From: Paracyclopina nana
Taxonomy: Eukaryota; Arthropoda; Copepoda; Cyclopoida; Cyclopettidae
DNA: 64,000 nucleotides
Assembly: GCA_019096065.1 (NCBI GenBank)
Contig: JAGUCH010000009.1
Span: forward strand, 3,420,001-3,484,000
Direction of reading: 5' to 3'
The notes under the pieces: generated by a model
The model's database searches: none
Seen by the model: only the letters and a program-made list of their open reading frames with translations
What the model was told of the DNA's origin: nothing
Program-made: the position numbers and the translations under genes
Shown here: piece by piece, positions 5,190-57,326 of the stretch
Numbering within the stretch: position 1 is the first letter of the stretch
Layout of the letters: each line of letters opens with the position of its first letter

Positions 5190-6500
5190 AACAGCATCAT
5201 ACCGCACCAAACCGCATCGAATAGCACCATACCGCACCATACTAAAAACCGCACCATAACAAAAGGAGGCCAAAAACGCGGCTACCACATCCATAGTAGT
5301 AAAACAAGGCTATGCAATGATGTAAAAATTACTTTGAGGAATCTCATGGACCAAAAGCTGATTGGACCTCATGAGTTAAGTCCCAGAGAGTCCAAAACCA
5401 GTCCTAACTCAAAAACTTTACTACACGGTGCTGTACGCTAGAGGCCAAAATCAGGGCTACCGCACCGAACCGCACCCATTGTAGTAAAACAAGGCTATCA
5501 TGTAAAAATTACTTGAATCCATCTCATGGCCCAAAAGCTAATTGGACCTCATGAGTTAGGTCCCAAAGAGTCCAAAATCAGCCCTAACTCAAAAAATTTA
5601 CTACTCGGTGCGGTATGCTAGAGGCCAAAAACGCGGCTACCGCACCCATAGTAGTAAAACAAGGCTATCATGTAAAAATTACTTATATCCATCTCATGGC
5701 CCAAAAGCTGATTGGACCTCATGAGTTAGGTCCCAGAGAGTCCAACTATGTTACAACTATGGGTGCGGAAGCCGCGTTTTTGGCCTCTAGCATACCGCAC
5801 CGTGTAGTAAAGTTTTTGAGTTAGGGCTGATTTTGGACTCTTTGGGACCTAACTCATGAGGTCCAATTAGCTTTTGGGCCATGAGATGGATTCAAGTAAT
5901 TTTTACATGATAGCCTTGTTTTACTACAATAAGGAACGATGGCGTCTGTCACGTAGTACAGTCAGCGCACCCTAGCGTGAAAAGCCGTGTAGTATGTTCA
6001 CTACAGAGGCAGCTAAATAGCAATTCGAAATTTGCCAAAAAATTGGCCTTCCCATATGATTTCTCAAAAATTCGATAAATAATATTTGACCCCTATTACA
6101 TTTCATGCTACTTAGATAAAAAAAATCAGGCTAATCAGGAGAAAAAAGCGGGAAAATGCTAAAGTTCTTCAATTGCAATGTAATTTGAAATTTTCCGCCT
6201 TTTTTTAGACCAATAAGAGCAGTGTTAAATAATGTTGGCTTTTATGGCGCCACCAGATAAAAACTTTTTTCATCGCGTAATTTGTGATTTGGGCTGTTTT
6301 ATGAAAATACAGGTAACTTTTAGCAGCTTTTGAGTGCGTAACCTTAAAATATTTTTTTCACACTTTTCCGTCAAAGCGTCATGCGTAAACAGCTGTACTA
6401 CCTTACAGTGGCGCCATCTAGCAGGATAAATTTCAAAATCAGCTCTTATGGGTGCGGTTCGGTGCGGTAGCCCTGCCTCTAGCGTACCGCACCGAAAATC
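5190..6500. repeat. Complex direct and inverted repeat block (GTGCGGTA ends)
   Basis: Three head-to-tail units of about 175-180 bp begin AGGCCAAAAACGCGG or similar at 5267, 5442 and 5622. The third is cut short near 5755 and is followed by a copy of the same unit in the opposite orientation (about 5760-5929). The outer parts repeat short words such as ACCGCACC, at 5210-5260 and again as GGTGCGGT at 6455-6500. The centre, 5930-6440, is unique sequence. No transposase is present. It looks like a rearranged foldback or satellite-like nonautonomous element. Confidence 0.7.
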
Positions 6501-21900: not shown

Positions 21901-24623
21901 TTCTCATAAGCGTAGTAGCTGAAGCTTAATTAATTGAGAACAACTAACTTTGCTCATCAGCTGCTGATGTACAACGCGTTGGCGTGTCAGCTCAGCGGTC
22001 AACTGAACATTGCTAAAACGAACCGAACTTGGCTAGAACAAGCTGAACTTAACTGATCAAGTAAGGTTGCTGTTTTAGCAACGTAACTTGACTAAAAATT
22101 CGAATATAGGATCGCCCTAAAATCTAAAGGCTTTATTCTGATAAATAATGCTTGTATGCTAGCTATAATATACTGCGCAAGCATCAATTACTTCGTTTAA
22201 AGGCTGCATGTTATGTGGCATATATGTATTCATGTGGGAATCTTTCTCACAGCCCACATTTTCCCTGTTTGCCTGCATCATTGCTTATTACCATAATACA
22301 TCGTGAGTTGAAGTAAGATATTAGAAAAGCAAGGCGGTTCAATGAATGGCATCAAAGGAACGGCTCCAATACAAATTACAGAGGTTACCTTGACGTTGGA
22401 GATTAATTTGGATGTTACTCTGATTCGTTTCACTCCATCGCATTCCATTTTGTGTTGAGCGCATTTTACGAATCTATTTTTGCCAGAAAAAAAAGGTGAA
22501 AAAACCCTCGATGGCAAGAAGGAGCCAAATTTTTTTCTCAGGGACAAAGACACTTTTTTAAAATTATCTCTCATTTGCAGGTTTTGGTGGCCAAGTCAGG
22601 TCGCTGTTTTACCGAGCCCGAGGAATCTTTCTGTGGCAATTTAAGAGTGGAAGGTGACGAGGAATGCGATGCTGGCCTTCTAGGATCTGAGGACAGTGAT
22701 GAATGTTGCGACGAGTACTGCAAATTGAAGGAACATGCCAAATGTTCAGATAAGAACTCGCCATGCTGCTCTAGATGCAACTTTTCGAAAATTGGGGAAG
22801 TTTGCAGGCATGCCAACTATGCAACCTGTGAAAAGGTGAGCTGGAGGTTTTTTTTCATGAAATATCATGATGTAACTCACAAGCTTCAAGTGCTGTGTGC
22901 TGGAAAATATGCTTTTGTTTATCGAGGATGGCAGAAGATTGGCCTTTTATCTTTAGGCAAGAAACTTCAAACAGATATGAAGTGAATGTTTTGGCAAAAC
23001 TGTCTTCTATGTCAGAAAATTGAAATTGATGGACAAAAGGAGAGAGAGATGTTTTCCCTTACTTTTTTCTTTTTGCATAATTTGATGGCTTCGAGGAAAA
23101 GACCGAAAGAATACATATTGCCAATTTCAAATACATGAACGAGGCATATAAATTGCGGAGTTGAGCGATAAGTATATAGATATGCTAGTTCCTGTCATAT
23201 GTCGAGAATATCTTAATAGAGGCCTCGATTCATTCGAAGCCGCATTTATATACAAGGAAGCACGTCATATTTTGTCCGTCAGGCATCACTCAAGTGAGCT
23301 TGTAAATTAGGCCGTGAAAAAATATAGTGTTTTTCCACCATTTTCTATTTTTAGAGATCTTGCTTTACATAATGATAAGCCATATGTGATGCATTTCTTT
23401 TTCAAATCCACTATCGAGTATTTGTCCGCCTATTGATTTCGCCAGAGAAAGACATCAAGCTTTTTGGTTTTTTTCAATTTCCAATCGAGTTGACATGGTT
23501 TTTTTTATTGCAGGAAGCCACATGCAATGGGAAAGAGGCCACATGTCCCACCTCTTTACCCATGGCAGATGGCACCAAATGCATAGATCGGGGTGAATGT
23601 CGGTCGGGCAAATGCATCGCGTTCTGTGAAACTCAGGATCTACAGGTTATACTACAGCTACTCATTGTTCGTGTTGAATGAACCCTATTAGATCCTTTTG
23701 AATTTTTCAGACATGCATGTGCGACACCATTCCAGACTCGTGTAAACGCTGTTGTCGCATGAATCTGAATACGTCGTGCTTCGTGATGCAACCAGAGGAG
23801 ATGCTTCCAGATGGGACACCCTGTAAAACAGGCTTTTGCAACAAGGGCATTTGTGAGCCGACCATGACGGACATTGTTGTCAGAATTTGGGGCTTTTTCG
23901 AAGACTTCAATCTCAATTCTGTCATGCGCTTCCTAAAGGTACAAAGCACTTTTTTGTGCCTGATTTCACCCTAGTAATCCGCTTTCTAATTGATCAATCG
24001 CTCCTCGTATGACGTTTTTTTATTTGTACGTGGGCAGGTCAAATTATGATGTATTGTGGTGGCAGCGCATTCCACCTTTTCACCCCAATTTTCCGAGGAG
24101 TTTTTCTAAAGGTCGCCTGCACCTATTTTTCATATCTGCAAAACAAACAGCGAATTTTCTATTGTCCTCTTGGGAAAATCTGCGTGGTTCGCATGCTCAT
24201 GCGCTCTGCAGCGGATTAAGTAAATTGAATTTTCTCATCATGAGATATCCTACAAAATGCGGAAAATGACAACAAATTGTTTTTAAGAGCACAACTGCGC
24301 ATCACCAGCTCCTTTTTTTCTTTTAGCATATTTACTACGCTCTTGGGAGGTCTCCTATTTAGCAGCATGTACAACATATTTTCACGGTTGCACATATTTT
24401 GCAGGATAATCTGGTTGGTACCGTGGTGGTCATCAGCTTACTCATTTGGATTCCTGCTTCATGCCTGATCTCGTGGATTGATCGCCAGCGAGCAGAGAAA
24501 GACCAAAAAGAGTGGGAATGGAGGCGACAAGACGAACTTATTCACCCTGATGACAAAAGACGAATTATCCACATAAGAGTGCCACGGAGAACTGTTTCTT
24601 TGGCTGCTGCTAACCAATTATAG
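18953..24623 (+). CDS. Tace: ADAM17/TACE-like membrane metalloprotease (sheddase)
   Basis: Eleven exons: 18953-19150, 19752-20041, 20158-20445, 20527-20694, 20759-20864, 21011-21195, 21333-21531, 22581-22835, 23514-23645, 23711-23938 and 24405-24623; 755 residues. In order: signal peptide ([20 protein letters not shown]); prodomain with the cysteine-switch motif PKVCGY; furin site RVKR; catalytic domain with the zinc site [12 protein letters not shown] (three His and catalytic Glu present) followed by [10 protein letters not shown], containing the Met-turn; disintegrin-like domain ([15 protein letters not shown]); Cys-rich membrane-proximal domain ([13 protein letters not shown]); TM helix [20 protein letters not shown]; and a short basic tail of about 50 residues. 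ADAM17 cuts membrane-anchored cytokines and EGFR ligands at the cell surface. Exon 4 ends in a GC donor. Intron 7 hosts a 395-bp MITE. ADAM10 is excluded by the close ADAM17 match in the membrane-proximal and TM regions. Confidence 0.95.
20695..20758 (+). other. GC-AG intron of the ADAM17 gene
   Basis: Donor AG|GCAAGT, acceptor TATGTAG|A, 64 bp. Joining these sites gives VVHR-KPTEV and keeps frame into HYNM, which is conserved in ADAM17. The next available GT (20699) would break the frame. GC donors usually need an otherwise perfect consensus, as here. Confidence 0.8.
21724..22118 (-). mobile_element. AGGGCG-family MITE, copy 2 (395 bp)
   Basis: Reverse orientation relative to copy 1: starts AGGGCGTTCCCGTATTGG and ends GGATCGCCCT. 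The direct duplication AAA is at 21721-21723 and 22119-22121. It lies within ADAM17 intron 7 (21532-22580). Confidence 0.9.
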
Positions 24624-25904
24624 TAATTATTCTTTGCTTGTACGAAAATACAGTTTTTCCTTCCGTACCTATGTAAAGTGCTCGCTCATCTAATTGCAAC
24701 TAAGTGCGGCATTATTAGATGCGAGGAAAGAGTCCTAATTGTATAAAAGCTTTCTTATTAGAGCACAAGTTTCTTGTCTGAACTCGAGGAAGTCGCCCAT
24801 ATAATGCTGTTAAAAGAATGTAGGCGAACGTGTAGAGAAACTGCTAATTGCCTCGGATGAGGCTTGAATACTCAATTGTTGAAAGATAAATGGAAATATC
24901 GTGGCATCACCAACCATCTTAGCAGCTGAAGCTACATTCTGTTTTGTATTGAAGAATTTCATGAATGAAATATCGGGAAATTGACTTTACTTCAGTCTCA
25001 GCTAGTTTCTTTCTGAGTACACACTGATCTCCTGAAAGCCGCGCTCTTTTTGCATCAAAAAGCTTTTTGAAAGCCCTCAATTTTTAGCTAAAAAGAATAA
25101 GTAGGTATGTTGCAACAAAGAATATCATTACATAGTGAGGTAACCAGTTAAGTCAGGTCGAGCTAAGCAGGAGCACGATTTTTCTGGAGAAAAAAGGTCA
25201 CTTAAATATAATCTCTGCTTTTTAACGAGCCACTCCTGCTTCTCATGCAAATGCCAAAAGGTATAAATAAGATACCGATTGAGTCATCAAAACCGGGTAA
25301 GCGCTATGGCCAATTCGGCCGGTTTATTTAGTGCGACAGTGCAGCCAGCGCATACCGTTTCTCAAGACTCAATCGGTATTTCTCAAAAGCAAGCAATCAG
25401 GCGATGTGATGGCTGGAAAGACAAGATTATTAGGTTATTACATCTGCTTGATTAAGTTAGAAGGCGAATAATAAAATGAGCAATATTGAACTGGTTCCTT
25501 TCTCATTTTTTGTATTTGTTTCAGCTCTGAATTTCTTTTATTGATGGCTATTCTAATGACTAAAAAGAACTAAATTCTACAGCTGATGGCACTGTGCAAT
25601 TTTTTAATACAGTTTAAAAGTGTAATATAATTCTAATTTCAAAGATTTTCTGCTAGCTGACATACTCGGTATGCTTCAGTAGAACATGCGCGCGCGCGCG
25701 TCTCCCACGTTTGAAACGGTTTCCCAGGATGATTTTGAGCGGGGCAAACTTTAAACTTCTCGAGGACGAGGACAGGCCGCCAGTGGATCGCCAAACGCCT
25801 GTTGCAGCGGCGCCACCGCCTATGCAGGAATTTCAGGATCAACTCAGCTGATTGAACTTCAGTGGCTCGCAAACGGCCGACAGTAGCAGACATCAACGCG
25901 CGCT
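24624..25904. other. Intergenic between ADAM17 and cyclin D
   Basis: Contains a 15-bp inverted pair, ATACCGATTGAGTC (25272) and GACTCAATCGGTAT (25364), and an alternating CG run (25688-25700) in the probable cyclin promoter. No gene seen. Confidence 0.4.
25688..25700. repeat. Alternating (GC)n tract upstream of cyclin D
   Basis: A run of about 13 alternating G/C bases in otherwise AT-rich DNA, some 205 bp before the cyclin start. It could form Z-DNA; no function can be inferred. Confidence 0.5.
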
Positions 25905-26915
25905 ATGGACCTGGTATGCACTGAGGTCCTCTACAGAGACTCCCAGGAAGAAGACGACTTGGGCCTCGGCGGCCTCAGATCGCTGCCCGATCCTGCCTTG
26001 CTCACCGACAAGCGAGTCCTTGAAAACGTCCTCCTTGGAGGCCAAGGCAACAACCACACCATCGTCGACTACTTCAGCCTCCAGATCCAGCGCCAAATCA
26101 AGCCCCATATGCGGAAAATTGTGGCGGACTGGATGCTCGAGGTGACAGAAGAGCAGAAATGCAGCCCAGAAGTATTTTCACTCGCCATCAACTACATGGA
26201 CCGCGTCTTGAGCCTGACCAGCATTGACAAGAGCCAATTTCAACTGTTGGCCTCAGTCTGCATTTTCTTGGCATCAAAATTCAAGGAGAGCAGCCCACTG
26301 TGCGCAGACAAGCTGGTCATCTACTCCGATTTCTGCTTCAGCACCGAAGAAATCATGGTAATTTTCCTTTTTAAAGTTCCATTGCAAATCACAAAAAAAT
26401 AACTTTATTTTTCATGGCAGAGATGGGAACTTGTGGTATTGAAGCTACTCGATTGGGACTTGTCAGCCATCACGCCATTCTGCATTTTGGATCAGCTGAT
26501 GCGAAGGATGCTGCTGACCGGCGTGCACACGTCAGCTGTTGTTGACTTTCAGGCCGCTCGCAATTTGGCGGAAACGCTCGTCACGCTCGCGGTGACGGAA
26601 ACCGCGTTTTTAACCACCCAACCTATCCTCGTGGCGGTCTCCAGCCTCATTACAGCTCTCTCACACACACTCACCACTCACGAAAGCCAAATACTTTTGG
26701 CAGACTTTGTCAAGACACTCTTGGATGTCAGTGGGCTCGGCGTTGAAGAGGTCACCAAGGTCATGCTCAAAATCGAGGACACCATTCTGAGCATGAGGCT
26801 GAATAATAACAACAAAAACCAAAACACTAATACATTCTGCAGCAAAAAATCCACGAGTAGCAATAGTAGTAGCGTCGTGGAAGTATCCAATGCTACATCC
26901 GCGTGCGTTTGCTAA
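25905..26915 (+). CDS. CycD: G1/S-specific D-type cyclin (canonical copy)
   Basis: Two exons, 25905-26357 and 26421-26915, separated by a 63-bp intron; 315 residues. The N terminus MDLVCTEV contains an LxCxE retinoblastoma-binding motif, a hallmark of D cyclins. The cyclin box is highly conserved: MRKIVADWMLEVTEEQKC, then NYMDRVLSL, then QLLASVCIFLASKFKE, in which the Lys of ASKFKE matches the CDK-contacting Lys of cyclin D1. The second fold starts RWELVVLKLLDWDLSAITP. The C-terminal tail is Asn- and Ser-rich and lacks an obvious TP phosphodegron. The protein would activate CDK4/6 to phosphorylate Rb in the nucleus at G1. The intron falls between EEIM and RWEL in phase 0, exactly where the divergent cyclin at 38979-41448 is split. 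Confidence 0.93.
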
Positions 26916-38978: not shown

Positions 38979-41448
38979 TTAAGGACTAATGTGGGTCGAC
39001 TCCAATAAATTATCCAGATCTTGTAGCACATTATTGAGATTACTTTTAGCAGTTATGGCGCCAGTTCCCGAGTCGGGAGATGAATTCTTCGAGCTGCTTC
39101 CACTGGAAGAACAGGTGGGAGTCAAAAGTCCAATGGCACTGTCATTATTCTCCTTGTTCATCTCCAAAGAGTCGTTCAAACTGGTTAATCTCCTCTTCAC
39201 CGAGCCGGCTGCTGCGCTGCTGCAGCAGCTGACTTTGTTATTGTCTTTGTTTACTTTTGAGTTTGGCGTTGAGCTCGACTCAACTTTGAAGGGACTGCTC
39301 AGTGATTTGGTGGGAGTGGTGTCAATCGCTGAGCCTTCTTGGCTGCTCAGCCTTTCTGCGCACTCAGCAAGGTCAGTTTTGGTGATTTTGAGCACTTGAA
39401 ACAAGGGAGGAATGTCGAGATTCAAGGCAGCCATGGCCACCACTTTGGGTGAGAAAATTGCTCTGAATGTGGCATATCTACAGCTGAGACTGCAAATGAG
39501 TTTGGATTTTTTCTGAACCTGCTGCTGCTGCAGCTTCGAGCGAGGACTTAACGAGTTGAGTGGCTCCAAATAGTCCAGAGCAATCACAAGGTTGATATCC
39601 CAGTCAAGTTTTGAGAGCACCAGCATTTCCCAAGCCTGCAATGCACAAAAAAGTAATTATGCACTAATTGTGATGTAATAACAATCATTCTCTTGACAGT
39701 AAGAAATAACTAATTATCACTAATTTGTACACAAAAAAATAACATTGGATAGTTTATTTTTCAATTGGCATAAAGTATATCTTTTTTTCTTCTTTTTTTG
39801 CTTTCACTCTTGCTGAAGACTTATTTTGCTAAACACATAAATTATAGGGCTTAACAATAATAGAGTATATGAGAAGCCATTTCTAATAAAAATTCTGCAT
39901 TGAAGAACAGCAGATTTTCATGTTTTCTAGTTGAGCAATTGGAGAACTGACGTCCTTTGTTGGCTGCCTGTGAATAATTGAATCTGAAAGGTGCATGGGG
40001 GAGATTAGTTTCAAGCACGTGCTCCCCCAACTACAACAACTCAACCCCTGACTCAAGATAATCTCACGTAGAATCTAAAAGACCCCATCTTGACCTTTTG
40101 TGAACTCCAAATGAAGTGGTTATGACCTGTACTCTCCGAAAACCACACACACGCAATTGCGGGTGCTTTAAGTAAGTTCCTAATATTTTTGGTTCAGCAG
40201 AGGCAAGAAAACCTTATCAACTACGTACCCTACTTACTTTCATCATTGGCTAATATCCCGTTCATCTGCCCCCAAATTCCTTACGATAATGCACGCCGAA
40301 CGCCTTACGGAAAGGAGAAAAATTGTCTTATGACAAACACAAAAGTTAACTTCTGCTGATGCTAATACTTTGGAAAAAACGGGTCAATTTTAAGATTATT
40401 GAAAAGTAAACACTCACAAAGCTTATTTCAATTTCAGTGCCAAACTTGTTATTTCTGAATCAATATTCATCACACAAATTCATATGAACCAACTCGAAAA
40501 TTGCAGAGTTACTACGTATAAGATACAGCTGAAATAATCAAAGTTTTTCTGAATTTTGCCCAAAATTTGTTAACTCGATTCCTGGTTCAACTAGTTGAGA
40601 AGCCCTTCTTAAGTGGTTTGATAGCAAAACTCCTTTGCCTTATTACAATTTTTTACTTTCCGAAAAGCAACTTTGCACATGAACGGGATATAAGCACCTT
40701 TCAATTATTTGGTTGGGTTCATTTGGCCACTTATTATATTAGAGGCAAGAATTTTCCTTATTGGCTCCAAGAAGTGATACACTATGGCTCATTATCTTCC
40801 GCGTCTTTGATCGTAGCATGGTTGCGGTTGTTATCGCTTCTTATTTACTGACATCGCAACCTCGTCAGTAAATAAGAACCGATAACAACCGCAACCATGC
40901 TACGATCAAAGACGCGGAAGATAATGAGCCGATATATCATGCTTGATTGGAAAACGGATTTCTCATAAAGTTAATTTCAGAATGGCGGTTTTTCCTATGC
41001 GCTCAAGACATATTTTGGGATTTACCTGAAGCTCGGGAATAGTAATGGCATTGTCAGTATAGTCCACAATTTGGGCCTCCGTTAAGCCCCTCTCTTGGCG
41101 TCTGACCTTTGCGGCGAGTAAAAGGCAAGCACTGGCCAATAATTGCACTTGATTATCGAGGATGGGGCAAATGTCCAGAAAACAGTCCATTACTGAGACG
41201 GAATGGAGGAAAACGTCCAGATGGACTCCAGAGTCGATGACCACCTCGTACATCCACTCAGAAGCCAGATCTCGGTGCTCGTAACTGATCTCCTCACTGT
41301 TTATCATCTGTTTTTCGCCAGTCTTCCGCTTGTTGCACTTTAATGCCAAGTTTGGCTGCGACCAAAATCGCTCCTCGCGTTCCATTAGCACTTCCAGCTG
41401 ATCTTTCACGCCAGCTGGAATCATTTCGGCGTCACCAGACATTTTCAT
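38979..41448 (-). CDS. Divergent D-type cyclin (second copy)
   Basis: Two exons, 41448-41026 and 39635-38979; 359 residues from the MKMSG start. A GTAAGT donor at 41636-41631 and pyrimidine-rich acceptors near 41518 and 41464 suggest a spliced 5' UTR exon. The cyclin box is recognisable but divergent: HRDLASEWMYEVV, QLLASACLLLAAKVRRQE, LTEAQIVDYTDNAI, then after the intron AWEMLVLSKLDWDIN. YTDNAI and KLDWDIN are specific to D cyclins. The N terminus lacks LxCxE (it has LKCNK). The C-terminal half is Ser/Thr-rich, with a KEN sequence (MNKENND) and several Thr-Pro and Ser-Pro sites that could mark regulated turnover. The intron position and phase match the canonical copy, indicating duplication. 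The 1,390-bp intron contains two transposable elements. Confidence 0.88.
40253..40691. mobile_element. TATCCCGTTCATGTGC MITE, copy B (439 bp)
   Basis: Same family and orientation as copy A (29702-30134). It lies in the intron of the divergent cyclin D and ends 94 bp before a 145-bp hairpin element. Confidence 0.8.
40786..40930. mobile_element. 145-bp near-perfect hairpin MITE (GGCTCATTATC ends)
   Basis: The arms GGCTCATTATCTTCCGCGTC... and ...GACGCGGAAGATAATGAGCC pair over about 68 bp with a short loop. It is in the intron of the divergent cyclin D. Two copies of the same length lie at 63531-63675 and 63822-63966. Confidence 0.9.
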
Positions 41449-41637
41449 ATGACAATTGTCTGCAAAAGCGTTGAAAAAGCAATTAAAACCGCTTCCCTTT
41501 CCAAAGAGAAAGCTGCTGCAGGAGAAAGACAATTATAATTACATAAGTGACAAAAGCTTGTAGCATGATACAGAGAGCAGGAAAACAATGAAGTTGCTAC
41601 ACATACCGAGGCTATTCAATTAGAGAAAAAACTTACT

Positions 41638-42442
41638 TGTTGCTGTGGTAAGTGAATGTCCTCAAGAGGATTTTGGTGTTGCTGGAGGAGGCCTCAAAAC
41701 AACCGTGAAAAGAGGCCTTGCAAGTGTTCCGTCCATGTAATAAAGGCTGGATTTGCTCAATTTATATATGCACCTCAACGAAATCAAAATGACAATTTTC
41801 GCAGCTACGATTTTTGGTGGGCCACCACACAACTGTTGCTTCGCGGCTGCTGCCAAAACTAGTAACTGCTAAAAGTTTCCCGCCGTTTTTCCCATCTGCG
41901 CCGCCAAAAGTCTTTTGGCCGTTTAAAACTGTAATGTTCATCCCCTTCAAAGTGAGCCAAGATCCACCAAAGGAGGTGCCGACATTTGTGCCGCCATCAT
42001 TTTTTATTTCGAAGAAGGATCAGGCGTCTTTTTCGAAGATGATTTCGCTTGATGCACCAAAAAGTGGAATAGAAAGCACTTTTAAAGAATTCACCTTTCA
42101 GTTTGAATTTCGTAGGAATTACAGTGGACAGACCCGGAGTACATCCACCTTGGCAGCCGAAAATGGATGGCATCAGCTGTAGAAAGGAATTTTTTCAGCC
42201 GGTGGCTGCTCGGGATGACGGCGGTCGGTCGGGAATAGCAACTTGCGGATTGGTCCCTCAAAAAGTTCGTTAAAACCTGGAGTAACCGCGAGTCGCGAGC
42301 TCAGACGCCGTTCGTTCCTATGCAGTCTCGATTTGTCAAAATTAATGGGTAATTAAACCCATAATTGCCATTTCCCTCCTTTTTTGCGCACATCTTCGAA
42401 CGTAGCATGCAGCCTCCAAAGTAGGGACGTTTTAATGTCAAA
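41638..42442. other. 5' flank of divergent cyclin D
   Basis: Probable promoter and 5' UTR exon of the cyclin on the minus strand, whose donor follows position 41637. A 122-codon plus-strand frame (41814-42182) has no recognisable domain. Confidence 0.4.
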
Positions 42443-42677
42443 AGGGCGATCCCATATTCGAATTTTTAGTCAAGTTACGTTGCTAAAACAGCAACCATAC
42501 TTGATCAGTTAAGTTCAGCTTGTTCTAGCCAAGTTCGGTTCGTTTTAGCAATGTTCAGTTGACCGCTGAGCTGACACACCAACGCGTTGTACATCAGCAG
42601 CTGATGAGCAAAGTTAGCTTTTCTCTATCAAGCAAGCTTCAGCTACTACGCATATAGGGCGTTCTCATATTGGACTT

Positions 42678-42795
42678 TAGCTTACCAAAACCTGATTTTG
42701 GTTAACCAAAAACCAGTTTTCGGTAGGTAGCCACTACATAGAGCTTTACTAAAACCAGTTTTTGGTTAACCAAAATCAGGTTTTGGTAAGCTAAA
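42678..42795. repeat. 118-bp palindrome inserted in the left terminal repeat
   Basis: Runs from TAGCTTACCAAAACCTGATT to AATCAGGTTTTGGTAAGCTA and folds on itself around CACTACATAGAGC. The right end of the transposon lacks it. It is closely similar to the core of the MITE at 57166-57326. Confidence 0.85.
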
Positions 42796-42904
42796 CCCCA
42801 CTTAGCATTTTTGCGTTCCTCAGGTCGGTTTTGAATTGTCACTAAGTACTTGAAAATGCTACCTAATGACGACCAAGCTCGAGATAAGCGGTCCGAAAAG
42901 GTTG

Positions 42905-43165
42905 AGCTCAGGAAGTAGTTTCAGGTAGCTTATTATCTAATGGCTACCTTACAAGTTGGTGAATAGGTTAGTGGTTGAACGTGAAAAGACTGTCACTAGG
43001 CCATTTCAGGTACAAGGCCGGTTCCTTCTATCGATCAAGTTCCAGGTGCAAGACGTAGTATTTCCTACTTGTTCATGAGTGTAAAGGTCATAATAAGGCC
43101 GCCTAATCATTTCTTTTCAGGTTGAAGCCTTTGAGCCACCCCAATCGTGACCAGGTTGAAGCCCG
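42905..43165. repeat. Left subterminal repeat motifs of the 8-kb element
   Basis: Copies of CAGGTRCAARGC-like words at about 43007, 43043, 43117 and 43153 match words at about 50382, 50405, 50475 and 50498 near the other end. EnSpm/CACTA elements typically carry such subterminal protein-binding repeats. Confidence 0.55.
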
Positions 43166-43520
43166 CTTACGGCCTACCCGTTGGAACCGTTGCTAGGCCT
43201 TCTAGGCCTTTGAACTGAAAATATTGTATTCAACCTAAATTCAACCTAATTGTGATGATGAAGTATGTGATTATGTAATTAGTAATGTATTTATTCACCA
43301 GATGAATAGCATAGCACTCGTTTTCTTATCCGAAACGTCAAAAATAATTGCATAAGTATATACACGTTAGCTAGTCACTTGTCAGCATGCAATTAGCAAT
43401 GCAGTACATGTCATTGTTGAAATTGAGGAATTTGCTGAATGCCAAGTGACAGCGCTAGGTCATTGAACACGTAATAATAATTTTCTCTCGAGGCGGCTAT
43501 ATCGATCTTCTCTCAAAGGC

Positions 43521-46500
43521 TTACTGCTCCGGTTGCTTGGGGGGAGTCTTAATGTTGTCTTCAGTAAGTTCATCCGAGCTTGACGTCATAACAGGAGCTG
43601 GATCATCTTGCACAGTCTTTGTTGCTGACTTCTTGCCTGAAGTACTCGGCTGGCTAGTCGTAGGACCTCCAGTGCTGGTTGAAGGCAAGTCAGACTGAAA
43701 GAAGGAGAGAAATGAAAGATGATAGCGAGGTGTAAAGAAACTATGTACGACTTAGATACATATTGCAAACAGATGAGAAGGTAATGAAAAGATAAAGAAG
43801 AAAAAAGGATGAAACTTAGGGACTCACTGGAGGCACTTGCGAGCGGCGTTTTGCCTCCCTCGCAAAGTAGGCTCTAGCTTTTTCAATCTCCTTCTCCCTA
43901 CGGGCCTCTAGCTCGGCAGTATTGTCTGCTCGGAAGTCATCATCACTGTCGCCAAGATCAATCTGAGTGACTTTCATGACCTTTGAGGACGGCTTCTTTG
44001 CTCCTTTGAACTGAGTGAATGGGTAGCGCTTAGTTGGAGAAACTGAAGCTGAGCGACGTTTCCTTTGTGGCTCGTCCTCAACCTGCTCTTGCTCGTCCAC
44101 GGCCTGATCACGTTCGGCATCAACAGTCCTCTTACGTCCTTTCTTGACAAGCTGATCCACATAAAGATGTGGAATGTTGTTGTGAGCATCCCCAGACAGT
44201 CGCTGCACAAGCGCAACAATGTCTTTATTCCTTGTCTTCGCCATATCATAAAGCAGTGGAAGCTATAGATAACAATGTATTCTTAAACTAGTTTGCCCCA
44301 ATCAGAAAGTGTATAACATATAAAAAGATTTACCTCAGGTACAGAGTCCGGGAGCGATTCATAAGCCAGGTTGAATGGATCATAGCCCAACAGGTAAGCC
44401 CCAGCCATAATCAGGTCGATCATCTCATCGGGAGTAACCTCAACGCCTTGATTTCTGAACATGTCAGTCAGTCGCTGATCCTTCGGTACATAAATTCGGT
44501 CTCCTTCCTTCTTAGAGTTGAACGCCTTAGTCATCTCACTCCTCTTAATGACAGCCTTGGCATGAGTAGCCCGGGACACAGGAGGTTTCACACTATTTGG
44601 CAAAGCATGCTTGTTTGCTTGGTAGAACCGAAAGTCCCAATCAACGACCAATTCGCCAGCCTCTTGATAGTCAGGACTTTGCAAGGCAGCATTAGTCAAG
44701 AACGCTCCGTACTCGTTAGAAAAATTTTTAGAGCTAGGAGTCTGAATGTCGTTGAAGTGATGGCTGTCACTTTCTGGGTCAAGCTTCTTTAAGACACAAA
44801 GCCGAGGCATCAATCTCTTGAAAATCATACTGAAGTATCCCTTCATCAGGGGCCTTTTAATGAAGGTCAGCATCCTCAGCGAGCTAATTAAATAGTTATA
44901 GTAAGAGACAGCTAGTCGCAAATGCTATAGTGTTGTTATAAATAATTACTTGTTGTTCAGGCCGACGATCAAGTGCGCACGAGCTAGTTGCGTGAAGCAA
45001 TTCATCAAACAGTTCCTGGCCAGGAATACGTTCATGTTCTTGAGCGGGAGACTATCCAAAGTTGGCGTGATGTATTCAACAAGTTGCTCCTAATAAAGAG
45101 GTCAACATCGCAAAGTACTTATTTCACTACTACCTAATTACTTACTTGAACTACGAAGAAAGCAAAGAAAACATCAGCCGTTTTTCCCATTAGATTAAAG
45201 GGAATCACCCGAAAGAGAATCCCCCACGCCTGACTCTTTGCTTCTGGATTGGCAGCAATGTTTCCAAGGGTATTGACCTTGGCTTGTTCAGTCAGCGACA
45301 AGTTGGCAATATTTTCATGGATATCCCTTGTTTGCAATTTGAGGGCCTAAACGATTACGCATTTGGTAATTATACGCTTACAAATCTAAATGCGACCTGA
45401 GCAGACATGGATAAAAGGTACTTACATTGAAGCCTTGTAGTTTGTTGTCGACCTTCTTGCGCAACTTGTCAAACTTGTCGTCATACTTCTTTTCAAGCGC
45501 GTTCGACTTTTTGATCATCCATTTCTGGAGAGTGATTAGAGCCTGCATTATCTCCTCATTTGTAGGATTTCCACTTGACACAATCACGTATCCAGCTTCT
45601 TCAGTTGCGGGATCGTAGTCAGGGTCGTCATCCCTGTTGAGGTCAACAGTGTCCTCAAGATCCTCAGTCTCATCCAAGACTCTTTGGCGCCTCTCCTCTG
45701 CAGCAAAACGCTTGGCTCGATCAATAGCCTCAGCTAGCGCATCATCGTCAATAACTCGTTCCAGCTCTTGTGGCATCAGACTTTTGGTGCGGACTAGCTC
45801 TTCGCTCGCTCTCTTTTCTTGGTCCATCGCAATGTGTTCAGCAATTACTGCTGAAGGATCAAAGACACTGCAAGTTGTTGGTGGCTGAACAGAAGGTTCG
45901 TTCGTCGGTACCGAAACCTCATATACGACCTCAGCGACTACTTCCTCTTGGTTCGGATCATTAGGAGCTGCTTCCTCTGTGGCGCTTTCTTGAGATGGCT
46001 CCAAGAAGTCAATAGGTACTTCAGTTTCGATTCCATCTTTGTACTCGACGATGCGCGTTGTTGGCTCCTGGAACGCTTCGTTCAGCGTCAATGTTGTTGG
46101 CGTCTCCTTAACGACTGAAATTCCCTTGGGGAGCATTTTCTTGGCGGCAACCTAAACGTTAATTGACATGTAATCGAAAATGTGGACATCATAAAATTTT
46201 AGGCCGTTAATACTCACGATGGCTGGATCGTCATGGGTGATTTTCTCCTTCAGACTTTTCTGGACATAACCTGGCTCGGCGTCCTCATCCTTATCAGTGA
46301 TTGGAGCGGCGCTCTGTTCAATCATCCTTCGAGTTTGAATCTTGTCCAAACGCGGGAAACGAAACTTCTCGCCAGGTAGCCGTCTTACGTAGTCGATGTT
46401 CCCCATGATCTTCTCATACCAGTGCTCCACCATGTTTTGGTAGTCCGCACTGATGTGCTTCATGTCGCCCTCGGTAATCTCCTCATTCAATTCGTCCATG

Positions 46501-46879
46501 ATGGCTAGGAGGCGGTCTTCCGTGACATCTGAAAATGATTTCATCGGTCACAAACTATTAGCGACACAAAAGGTTGCCATTTACCTTGTTGAACCCTAGC
46601 AAAGACGCGTACAATCCGGTCGGTGCAAGTGTACTCATCCTTGATGACGAAGATGTAGTTACGATGATGTTCTTGCATTTCTGAGGTCGGCTCCATTTTC
46701 TTTCGAAAAGTATCGATCCACAAGTTGCCACTAGCGTCGGTGATGTCCGTGCTGATGTAGCTGAAGGGCGATTCATCCTCAAACTGACAAACTATGAGCC
46801 TGTCATACACCGCGGCCTGTTTCGGCTTCTCCTCGGCCTTTTTTGCCATGATTTTGCGGCCCGAATCAATTTCTTCCAA
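43521..46879 (-). CDS. Transposon accessory protein, 8 exons, unknown family
   Basis: Exons 46879-46585, 46528-46218, 46151-45426, 45346-45146, 45089-44950, 44883-44334, 44262-43828 and 43694-43521 (stop). All use GT-AG with introns of 56-133 bp, and they close to 943 residues. I recognise no domain. The N-terminal ~95 residues look globular (YDRLIVCQFEDESPF, then IVRVFARVQQ). Residues about 200-400 are very acidic with a charged helical stretch (DRAKRFAAEERRQRVLDE). A second globular region of about 180 residues includes VVDWDFRFYQANKHALP and VEVTPDEMIDLIMAGAYLLG. The C-terminal ~200 residues are basic and Ser-rich with a likely nuclear signal (RKRRSASVSPTKR). By position it is the counterpart of the second gene of EnSpm/CACTA elements, whose product binds subterminal repeats; that role is inferred. 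It shares a 373-bp divergent promoter region with the transposase. Confidence 0.8.
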
Positions 46880-47252
46880 TTTTACGCTTCTGCGCTCGCT
46901 GAGATGGCGGCCAGAAATGAGCGGGCAATTCGAAACCGGTAACGAATATTTCTTTCGTCAAATCTTTAAGTACCTGGTTACAATCTTTTCACTACTGATT
47001 GTCTCGACGCCAGGAACTGTCAGGTAATTCTGTTTGATGTCAGCTGTCGCCGCAGTGAGTCAGCACATTTCTGAGAAATGTCAGCTACCTGTCAAAAACC
47101 TATTAGCGAGTAATTAGTGCGTCAGCAGATTGCATTTAGAATCGTCTCAGTAATAACTGAGAGGATTATCACACCGGAAGTTGTTAGTGTTTAACAACAA
47201 ATAAAATAACAAAGACGCAAAAGCGAGCGCTAAGAAAAATTGAAGTGCAAAA
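46880..47252. promoter_or_regulatory. Divergent intergenic region of the 8-kb transposon
   Basis: 373 bp between the start codon of the accessory gene (46879, minus) and the transposase start (47253, plus). It must hold both promoters. It includes TGTCAG/CTGACA words at about 47018, 47038 and 47080. No clear TATA box. Confidence 0.5.
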
Positions 47253-50043
47253 ATGCCGAGAACGTAAGAAATAGATTATCTTGTGGAGGTAAACCTTTCT
47301 CAATTACTTCTTTTCCAGAAATAAGTCAATGGACAGGTCGCAGAATCGTGAGCGCCGCAAGTATAAACGCAGACTCCTGAATGTGCGTTCAATCTTGAAA
47401 CAGCACAGCAATGGCGAGGCGGCTGACAAGGACAAACTAGCCATGGCTGTTCGAGAGCTTGAAGCAGTCATTGGTGCGAAAAACCTTTCACAAGAGGACA
47501 ATGACGCATCCGACGAATATTCTGAAGACGAAGACCAAACAGCAGCAAGCGACCAAGAAGCAAACGCTGCCGAAGGATTATCGAGCGCTAACGCGGAGGC
47601 TATAAGAAATTTCCGTTTTCGGCGAATCCAAAGTGCAACCATTGACCTATCCGAGCCCGCTCCCGAGGTTGGTGTTCGTGCTTTGCCAAGCCTTGCTGAA
47701 GTTGCGACTACAAGTCGAGATAATCGTGTGTCCGTTCCAATTTTGCCACGACGCGAACGAGACCAAGACGAGCAGTTGCTTGTGAGAAATCCAGACGCAG
47801 TAGCTATTGTGGACCTAAACACATCATTAGAGAGCAACGACGACGACGACGACGACGCTGATAACGAAGCAAGCGCACGCAATCAAGCTGATGTTGAAGA
47901 CGCCGAGATTGATGCTCCGCCCACTGTGGATGATAATCCAACTAATGACTTCCTTGATAGGATTGTCCAGCAAGAGCTTGATGGAGACAGCGATGATGAG
48001 ATGGATCAAGAGGCGTCTGGAAATGAAGCCGTCAATGAAACAGGAGATAGTGACGCTGATGATGAAAACGAAGAGGATGGAGGCGAAGCCGAAGCAGCAG
48101 TTGACGATGACGATAACGTTCAGGCAGATGTAAATGACGATGGAGGGCCGGTGAAGCTAAATTACCAAGGATTTGTTGAATACTTCCGCCGAGAAGCCAG
48201 AATGGAGGGAACAGGCCTTCAAAATCGGAGCTACACCGAAATATTTGACGAAGTTGCAAGGAAGAACTACCTGACCGCCACCGGAGAACGAATGATGTTT
48301 GACCTTCACCGCGCCAGAGACAGAGTCTATCGAGACGTAAAAAGGAAAGGTTTAGACTCTTGCAGAAAGCAATGGCTGCCGAAGAAACCAACAGTTAGGA
48401 TGGACTATGAGTTCAGAGAAATTGCCACTGGAAGAGTTGTTAAAGTTCGTAATAGCTTAAAGTTCCCAAGGAAGGCATTTCCTGCTGACAAGTTTGTCAG
48501 GATCTCTGAGTTTGCTAGATGCAGCCTGCAGGAACTGTTCCAGCATTCACAACGCCTGCACGGCAATAACTATGAGTTTGTGCCGAAGCCTCACAACAAC
48601 AAGCTCGACCTATTTATGGATGGCGTTCCGTGCGCTAAAAGCGCATCTGATAAGCTGGACGTTGTTAGTATCAGATTCCAAGATTGCGATTTGATTTACG
48701 TGCATTCCATGCACGTCTATAAGAAGGACACTAATCTAACACCTGTACAAGTGCTGGAGTCGCTTATCAAGGAAGCAAAGGGATTTGAGTTCAACATTAA
48801 TAGAGTCATCGGCGACGCTCCTATTCGTGCACGTTTGAAATGCTTGAAATTGCATTCAGGCTACTATTCATGCGAATGTTGCTTTGCAAAGGGAGAACAA
48901 GCTTTGTCATCTCGAAAAGTGGTTTTCCCAAGCTCGACCATGAGGGCTGATGCTCGAACTGATCACTGGTGGAACAGGACTGTCGAGAAGATTTATGAGA
49001 ACGGTGGTACAGTTAATATGGATGATGAAGAACTTAAGGGGATGACTGGCATTTCTCCGTTGTCGGTTAAGCTACCTGGCGACTCCATGTACTTTTCCAT
49101 GTCAAAGAAGTTCACGGTCGAACCTATGCACAATATAGGTGGATGCATTAAGCAGTTGCTAAGGTTGCTATTTCAGCTCCCCAAGAGCTCGCAAAAGTTG
49201 TCTGCCGAACAGACAAGGAAGCTGCGACTGCTTGACAAACGTTGGACGCAGATCAAATTGCCAAGGGAGTTCAACCGCCGTAATCGTGAGATTTTGAGGA
49301 ACTACAAGCACCTCAAAAGTCAGGAGTACTTCTCAATTGCTGGAGCCGGCTTTTTGGCTGTTGCCAATGCCATGGATCTGAAAGATGACACCCGAAAAAG
49401 AGAAGTTTGGCTTCGTTTCTGCTTCATTGTTCGATTGGCGATGTTCCCAAACAGAATGTGGGCCATGTTTAAAGTCAAAGTTGGTATCTGGATGAAGATT
49501 TGGCACTTCTACACAGCTTTTGAACAGGTTTTTGGAGTCGACGAATGCTCTTGGAACATCCACACATTCAGTCATCTGATCCAACTGCGAGACGTGTCCA
49601 ATTTACCAGATGGCTCTGCTCTTATGTTCGAAGGTGCTTTCAACTACATGAAAAAGATAATGAAGACCAACACACCCTCGTTTGCGAAGCAAGTGATCGA
49701 GAAGATGACAGCAAATAATGTCCGCAGCCATTCCTGTAAGCCTGTGGTTCGTTTTTCTGCCAGAGATCGTGCCAGATATGCCGACAATATGATCTACACA
49801 GAAACTGGTGACTTCTATCTGATTGACTCCATTGAAGGAGATCATTATAACGCGAAGAAATTCTTGACAAGCAAATTTGTCACCCCGGAAGATAAGGGCC
49901 TCAACTGGGACCTAGTCGGTGTAAGACTTGTTCACCAACTGAAGTCGGAGATTCATCAAGTCCGAAAAGTAGATGTCGTTGGAAAAGCTACCATTGACGA
50001 CACTGTTATTATTGCTATGCCTTTTGCGTACGCCTTTGTGTGA
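47253..50043 (+). CDS. EnSpm/CMC-like (Tnp2-type) transposase
   Basis: The main exon is 47319-50043. An 11-bp first exon (47253-47263, ATGCCGAGAAC|GTAAGA) spliced over a 55-bp intron would add MPRTNKS before the Met at 47329, giving 911 residues; without it the protein has 904. The N-terminal third is acidic and disordered. The core resembles the Tnp2-like transposase domain: LFMDGVPCAKS (D431, numbering from 47329), VIGDAPIRA (D496), a Cys cluster C515/C517/C518, FTVEPMHNIGG (E598, where plant proteins have D..H), and HTFSHLIQLRD, then MFEGAFNYMKK (E768). D431, D496 and E768 are the candidate DDE residues; this is inferred by motif alignment from memory. It cuts and joins transposon ends in the nucleus. 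It is intact, so recent activity is plausible. AATAAA lies near 50166. Confidence 0.85.
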
Positions 50044-50613
50044 TTGTGCGACAAACTAGTCCACATGTGCAACATACGCAGTATTTCAGCAGTCGTATAA
50101 ATGCCGTAAATAATTATTAGCCGCTATGTCATTATTTCTCATGTCCATTTCCAGTAAAATATGTAAAATAAACATTTGCAATCCTTATCAATTTGCATTT
50201 ACTGATAATAACCTGGTTATAAGGTGGTCATTGCATAAAAGGTACCATTTCATTAAGTTTTCATCGTTTTGCTTCTGGTCATCTCAATATTTAGTTCACT
50301 TCTTCAACATTGCCATTTTATTCATCGCAACGAGCAGTGCTTACAGAGACTTGCATGAAGTGCTGCACTACTACATTACACCAGGTACAAAGCGACCTAT
50401 TGGCAGGGTGCAAAGCAATTCCATGATGAATACTTGGTGGCAACATTTCCACACCTGGAAACTAAAAAAAACTGTCAGGTACAAGGCGAGAATTTCAGGT
50501 TATCAAAAAGTACTTGAACTCTTGCTAGTGACATGATTTTCACTTTCAAAATCTAAATTTCATACTAGGTCGCCAGTAGCAAATACTCCACGAGTGATCA
50601 GATTGAGTCAATT
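50044..50613. other. 3' region of the transposase and right subterminal region
   Basis: 3' UTR with AATAAA near 50166, then noncoding sequence with the subterminal CAGGTRCAARGC-like words. A 136-codon frame (50126-50536) is probably chance. Confidence 0.5.
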
Positions 50614-50780
50614 GCAAAAATGCTAAGTGGGGAAGTCCAATATGAGAACGCCCTTATGAGAACACTTTTTGCAGCTAAGTTCAGTTCTACCTACATAAAT
50701 ATCTGGGAACGGAACTGAACTAAGCTTAACTTTCTACCTAACTCAACTTGACTAACTGGCCAATACGGGAACGCCCTAAA

Positions 50781-57165: not shown

Positions 57166-57326
57166 AGGGCGTTCTCATATTGGACTTTTGCTTAGCAAAA
57201 CTTGATTTTTGCTAACCGAAAACCTGTTTTTTGTAGGTAACCACTACATAGCGCTTGACTAAAAACCAGTTTTTGGCTAAGCAAAATCAGGTTTTGGTAA
57301 GCAAAAGTCCAATATGAGAACGCCCT
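57166..57326. mobile_element. 161-bp palindromic MITE of the AGGGCG family
   Basis: Starts AGGGCGTTCTCATATTGG and ends CCAATATGAGAACGCCCT. The direct duplication ACT is at 57163-57165 and 57327-57329. The whole element is a hairpin around ACCACTACATAGCG. Its termini are identical over the first 22 bases to those of the 8-kb transposon, so that transposase could mobilise it. Confidence 0.92.

Follow-up and report, generated by a model that had tools for sequence, protein, structure and literature searches.

A probable CACTA/CMC-group transposon with CCCCAC ends nested in two miniature inverted-repeat transposable elements of the copepod Paracyclopina nana

The closest described animal elements were grouped in a 2006 paper as 'transposons related to CACTA' (TRC), and include SmTRC1 of Schistosoma mansoni and elements of Tribolium and Aedes. 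According to the parts of that paper covered here, TRC elements have a CCC terminal core and 2-bp target duplications. Of 14 SmTRC1 copies, 7 had the 2-bp duplication, and insertion into another repeat was described for three copies; the elements of Tribolium castaneum and Aedes aegypti are about 5.2 and 9.2 kb long (PMC1636069). In plant CACTA elements a second protein supports excision, as stated in the covered part of PMC4158355. For the CMCT clade, the covered part of a 2025 paper gives the residue order D, D, C(2)C, H(3-4)H, E (PMC12730594). Here, we analyzed a stretch of 64,000 nucleotides of Paracyclopina nana (assembly GCA_019096065.1, contig JAGUCH010000009.1, positions 3,420,001 to 3,484,000; hereafter the window), in which three mobile elements are nested at 42441-50780. 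The innermost is a two-gene element of 7,837 bp at 42796-50632 (+). It is very probably an intact cut-and-paste DNA transposon that belongs, as a divergent two-gene member, to the CCC-ended animal branch of the CACTA/CMC group.

Borders of the element and order of the nested layers

An inverted-repeat search showed two perfect terminal pairs, an outer pair of 22 bp (42656-42677 and 50633-50654) and an inner pair of 19 bp (42796-42814 and 50614-50632, both listed on the + strand; the left repeat is CCCCACTTAGCATTTTTGC) with AA on each side. The two pairs are separated by 118 bp, on the left side only. The left 140 bp (42656-42795) matched copies of a miniature inverted-repeat transposable element (MITE) on many contigs of the host genome (92 Mb, ten contigs), and these copies continued past the start point of the element into the 20 bp found beyond its right end. 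When 42656-42795 was joined to 50635-50654, leaving out the element and one AA, the restored MITE was identical over 160 of 160 positions to 17 of the 22 other intact MITE copies, and over 159 of 160 to the remaining five. An exact empty site for the window element is present in these 22 copies. The true element is 42796-50632, which begins with CCCCAC, ends with GTGGGG and is flanked by the 2-bp duplication AA. The 221 bp at the right end (50434-50654) had themselves as their sole match in the genome, so that, as far as that search could detect, the window element was seen once.

An earlier note on this DNA had set the ends of an 8-kb element at 42656 and 50654, with AGGGCG termini, a 3-bp TAT duplication and terminal sequence shared with the surrounding MITE. 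These ends belong to the 160-bp MITE, and checking genome copies for ends that coincide with 42656 and 50654 gave an outcome contrary to those borders; the inner 19-bp repeats are the true ends. TAT is present at 42653-42655 and 50655-50657, as the note said, but it is the duplication of the 160-bp MITE. AGGGCG is common to two MITEs, one within the other, and the sharing of terminal sequence is between MITE and MITE, not between the element and its surroundings.

From outside inward, the layers are a 332-bp MITE with AAA duplications, the 160-bp MITE with TAT duplications, and the two-gene element with AA duplications. The left arm of the outer MITE (42444-42655, +) begins with AGGGCG and follows AAA at 42441-42443; its right arm (50658-50777, +) is followed by AAA at 50778-50780. 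The earlier description of this outermost layer thus stands. Within it, the left 140 bp of the 160-bp MITE (42656-42795, +) close with the AA that is the left target duplication of the element, the right copy of which (50633-50634) precedes the right 20 bp of the MITE (50635-50654, +). The element was therefore inserted 20 bp from the right end of the 160-bp MITE, or 22 bp counting the duplicated AA. Because of the nesting, the order of insertion is the outer MITE, then the 160-bp MITE, then the two-gene element, which is younger than the MITE copy that it split.

Both MITE families have AGGGCG..CGCCCT ends. The outer MITE measures 332 bp without its insert. A genome search with its left arm gave 329 first-look candidates, and the 40 that were scored showed 95-97% identity, the window copy itself aside. 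The window carries a further copy of this family at 21906-22117 on the minus strand (C9:3441906-3442117; 95% identity over 212 bp). For the 160-bp MITE, its 31-bp end had 95 forward and 91 reverse genome matches with at most 2 mismatches, while a control pattern had 0. The 97 end places listed on contigs C1-C6 collapse to 62 copies, and the copy number in the genome is roughly 95-120. We examined 27 copies and excluded five for not having both ends exact, leaving the 22 intact copies used above; an exact 3-bp duplication surrounds 14 of them and is missing around eight. At G000:C5:6101445-6102015, two ends of the 160-bp MITE are spaced 571 bp apart instead of 160, which would be a longer relative or a MITE with a different insert. 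Short repeats (AAAACCAGGTTTTGGCTAAGC) at 57186-57306 of the window are like the palindromic interior of the 160-bp MITE and perhaps belong to a related MITE.

The family in the genome and its insertion sites

A protein search of the genome with the transposase of the element gave 305 candidates, of which 50 were scored and listed and 255 were not scored. The listed places showed 31-59% identity, except for the window copy and one 65% fragment. By the count of the search tool, open frames of 800-1,000 codons were found at 41 of the 50, one of them with a stop inside the match. Twenty of the 50 were not fetched as loci, and 1 kb downstream was read for two of these. Relatives in viral contigs were also looked for, and none was found.

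The ends were tested in 25 elements, namely the window copy and 24 of the 29 other loci L011-L039. L029 was excluded as part of the element of L019, and L020, L025, L038 and L039 were excluded as they had no GTGGGG within 1.5 kb downstream. All 25 elements start with CCCCAC, end with GTGGGG and have equal 2-bp flanks. For the right ends, GTGGGG sites were chosen by hand; for the left ends, the CCCCA site was taken that gave an inverted match. This selection accounts in part for the CCCCA..TGGGG form. The 2-bp duplication played no part in that choice and is therefore an independent check. The shortest inverted end matches were of 6 bases (L019 and L032), and in three of the 25 elements (L019, L024 and L037) the transposase frame was broken or short. 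As evidence that does not depend on any motif, two near-identical pairs with different flanks ceased to match at the GTGGGG end, exactly so in L014/L015 and with one shared base beyond it in L033/L036. As for the excluded loci L038 (contig C1) and L039 (contig C6), they matched at 99.98% over nearly all of 4.9 kb with no end seen, and carry internal direct repeats downstream; they are either longer elements or a duplicated segment.

One relative, L013/L062 on contig C5, whose transposase shares 56-57% identity with that of the window, interrupts the same 160-bp MITE at another position, 13 bp from the MITE end, with the duplication AT. Its joined MITE gave the same identity scores as that of the window and is flanked by AAT on both sides. 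Paralogous empty sites across the junction were also found for L033 (8 places, 90-97%) and L030 (4 places, 77-87%), with one marginal place for L016. For 21 of the 23 other elements, no clear junction-spanning paralogous empty site appeared (40 of 148 and 40 of 140 candidates scored), indicating that insertion in repeats is not the rule.

These data bear on whether the nesting is targeted, with the palindromic 160-bp MITE as a preferred landing site, and not due to chance. We consider such targeting unlikely and keep it as a weak lead. This MITE occupies about 0.017-0.02% of the genome, and it hosts two of the 25 elements whose ends were set; without the window copy, L013 alone gives 1 of 24 against about 0.004-0.005 expected, and a third element (L014/L063) has its start about 117 bp away from an intact copy of this MITE (G000:C1:4862240-4862517). 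However, the window copy was the starting point of the analysis, a whole-genome pattern for element ends near MITE ends found these two only, and the lack of clear empty sites for the 21 elements speaks against the idea as well. A coarser distance test, likewise counted against the idea, covered only the 62 MITE copies listed on C1-C6 together with 39 transposase places and yielded 2, compared with a mean of 0.35 (P = 0.049).

The two genes and the placement of the element

Gene 1 (47329-50043, +) encodes the transposase P0001 of 904 amino acids in one open frame with no stops. D431-G432, D496, R500, C515, C518, H601, H745, H749 and E768 were invariant in 23 of 23 aligned proteins and in 19 of 19 proteins of a reduced alignment. 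The larger alignment omits L019, L024, L025, L029, L037, L038 and L039, and the smaller one additionally omits the near-identical copies L015, L022, L035 and L036. The CMC/CMCT residue pattern, with D, D and E and with C(2)C and H(3-4)H between the second D and the E, was thus found in 23 of 23 proteins, and a catalytic role of these residues is predicted. In six of six divergent pairs, some of which share members, non-synonymous differences amounted to 0.11-0.23 per site and synonymous ones were saturated (0.80-0.84), which argues that the transposase has been kept by selection.

Gene 2 runs divergently on the minus strand from 46849 to 43521 and would encode an acid-rich protein of 933 amino acids in eight predicted exons (46849-46585, 46528-46218, 46151-45426, 45346-45146, 45089-44950, 44883-44334, 44262-43828 and 43694-43521). 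The seven predicted introns are of GT-AG type and 56-133 bp long, with sites picked by eye, and the frame is open once spliced at these sites. The earlier view that both genes are undamaged was borne out in the single frame of gene 1 and in the predicted spliced frame of gene 2. Five relatives were read over 10 kb, two of which (L062 and L064) scored identically and are close copies. The blocks of exons 1-7 were matched in all five; the exon 8 block was matched in one. The 183-amino-acid exon 6 had 50 genome matches, of which 39 have a divergently oriented transposase 2.4-4.2 kb away and 11 have none at that distance. Seen from the transposase, a divergent gene-2 exon match at this distance occurs at 40 of the 50 listed places (39 elements, one in two pieces), and these 40 are the best-scoring ones.

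Neither P0001 nor the product of gene 2 had a convincing Pfam match. An acetyltransferase model matching P0001 (E 0.021) and a CdiA tRNase model matching gene 2 (E 0.0076) were dismissed as below the curated cut-offs.

Compared with animal TRC elements, the present family has in common the CCC core (all 25 elements whose ends were set, with CCCCA..TGGGG as the form searched for), the 2-bp target duplication (25 of 25) and a CxxC near the second D (19 of 19 proteins). In both, some copies lie in other repeats and the size is comparable. The element here ends with CCCCAC, and a literature search for CCCCAC ends returned no relevant paper. SmTRC1 produces alternatively spliced transcripts with distinct open reading frames (covered parts of PMC1636069), whereas the window element has a separate, divergent second gene. 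A divergent partner gene for TRC elements is not described in those parts of PMC1636069 and may be in print elsewhere. With plant CACTA/EnSpm elements, the element shares the two-gene plan of a transposase and a second protein, the DDE-type acidic triad and cut-and-paste movement, as far as these are set out in the covered part of PMC4158355. The ends are CCCCAC here but CACTA..TAGTG there, and the duplication is 2 bp here but 3 bp there; the transposase here is one open frame. For CMC/CMCT elements in general, the covered part of PMC12730594 gives duplications of 2 to 5 bp, a range that includes the 2 bp found here, and CA..TG ends for most members, whereas here the ends are CCCCAC..GTGGGG, with CA after three C. 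The earlier assignment to an EnSpm/CMC-like family with non-CACTA ends agrees with the invariant residues and with these termini. By its ends, the element fits the TRC/CACTA group; placement by protein is less firm and is not established.

Several observations weigh against the reading as an intact CCC-ended member of the CACTA/CMC group. A Pfam scan of 19 relatives at E up to 10 listed no transposase model, Transposase_21 (PF02992), the domain of TRC proteins, included. The scan returned 13 families, each in one or two of the relatives, the nearest transposase-like one being the integrase core rve in 1 of the 19 relatives (E 0.1). A genome search with PF02992 gave nothing, its controls being likewise silent, and sequence searches of PDB found nothing significant (best E 0.51 in one and 1.9 in the other). 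The printed TRC motifs I and A were found in their strict form in 0 of 19 proteins, while a relaxed motif A ([DE]-x-[LM]-H) was found in 19 of 19, and the spacing between the two D residues is 65 in P0001 but 80 in TRC. The close pair L021/L022 has a ratio of non-synonymous to synonymous differences (dN/dS) of 0.52. The ten lowest-scoring of the 50 listed transposase places had no gene-2 match nearby. Outside the 25 elements, the L020/L025 lineage ends with CCCAAC (..TTGGG), judged by the point of divergence, and the L089/L090 lineage probably ends with CCCAGC, judged by divergence of the copies. Since lineages end with CCCCAC, CCCAAC and probably CCCAGC, CCC is the common core, and in the last two lineages it was found by copy divergence. 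L089/L090 is a distant transposase lineage whose 3′ flanks are 98% identical and diverge just after TTCGCTGGGA, an end other than GTGGGG; no gene-2 match lies nearby.

It could be argued from these results that the transposase represents a superfamily of its own, whose resemblance to CMC/TRC elements stops at the D-D-CxxC-HxxxH-E pattern and the CCC ends, as the missing Pfam transposase match in 19 relatives, the absence of the strict TRC motifs in 19 of 19 and the conserved divergent second gene would suggest. We regard this as rather improbable, because the residues of the pattern are all invariant in 23 of 23 proteins and because the ends and the size of the duplication agree with the published TRC elements. 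Least of all can we credit one 7,999-bp element with AGGGCG ends and a 3-bp TAT duplication, of which the MITEs would be deletion products: the perfect 22-bp outer repeats with TAT and the left 140 bp and right 20 bp that together compose a MITE are what internal deletion would leave, but L013/L062 splits the same MITE elsewhere with a different 2-bp duplication, on which ground the derivation of the 160-bp MITE from such an element was dropped, the flanks are not this MITE in 23 of the 25 elements whose ends were set, and AA at 42794-42795 and 50633-50634 suits insertion whereas chance is needed under the deletion model. With AGGGCG ends and 3-bp duplications, the element would be misassigned to a family and the MITE credited to the wrong transposase.

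Movement of the family, neighbouring features and significance

The preferred reading, an intact CCC-ended member of the CACTA/CMC group, was further considered with respect to age and movement. The window element has no direct date because no sister copy appeared in the searches made; the MITE copy that it split is the one identical to 17 of 22 sister copies. The earlier picture of an intact two-gene cut-and-paste transposon that entered the MITEs late was upheld. Among other members of the family, comparisons over about 4 kb gave identities of 99.88% (L014/L015), 99.6% (L034/L035) and 98.6% (L021/L022) and, with no mismatch and one gap, 99.86% (L033/L036). As these near-identical pairs occupy different sites, recent movement within the family is likely. 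The window copy may itself be active, judging from its intact ends and open frames.

A mechanism can be proposed by which the transposase would bind the CCCCAC ends and its DDE residues would cut the element out, after which the excised element would be joined to the target through cuts 2 bp apart. Of these steps, the 2-bp stagger is shown by the 2-bp duplications. The second protein may aid excision or end binding, by analogy with the second protein of plant CACTA elements. The element would thus function in the manner of TRC/CACTA elements, and its mechanism looks ordinary.

Elsewhere in the window, two cyclin-like genes lie on opposite strands at most 15 kb apart (25887-26915, +, and 38979-41532, -). 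Cyclin_N domains were found in the open reading frames 25887-26402 and 40963-41532, and the two genes are perhaps a diverged duplicate pair. An open reading frame with a disintegrin domain lies at 22500-22985 (+), and a 180-bp tandem repeat with 2.7 copies at 5266-5745.

A bolder proposal, possible but doubtful at present, is that the family forms a deep unnamed CMC branch marked by CCCCAC ends, duplications of 2 bp and an obligate pairing of two divergent genes, of which dozens of ancient lineages would be co-active in the 92-Mb genome, one clade favouring palindromic MITE ends. The family, which is unusually diverse, bears on the number of lineages of a single transposon group that remain active at the same time in a small genome: the subfamilies compared are saturated at synonymous sites, yet some of them contain copies with 98.6-99.9% identity.

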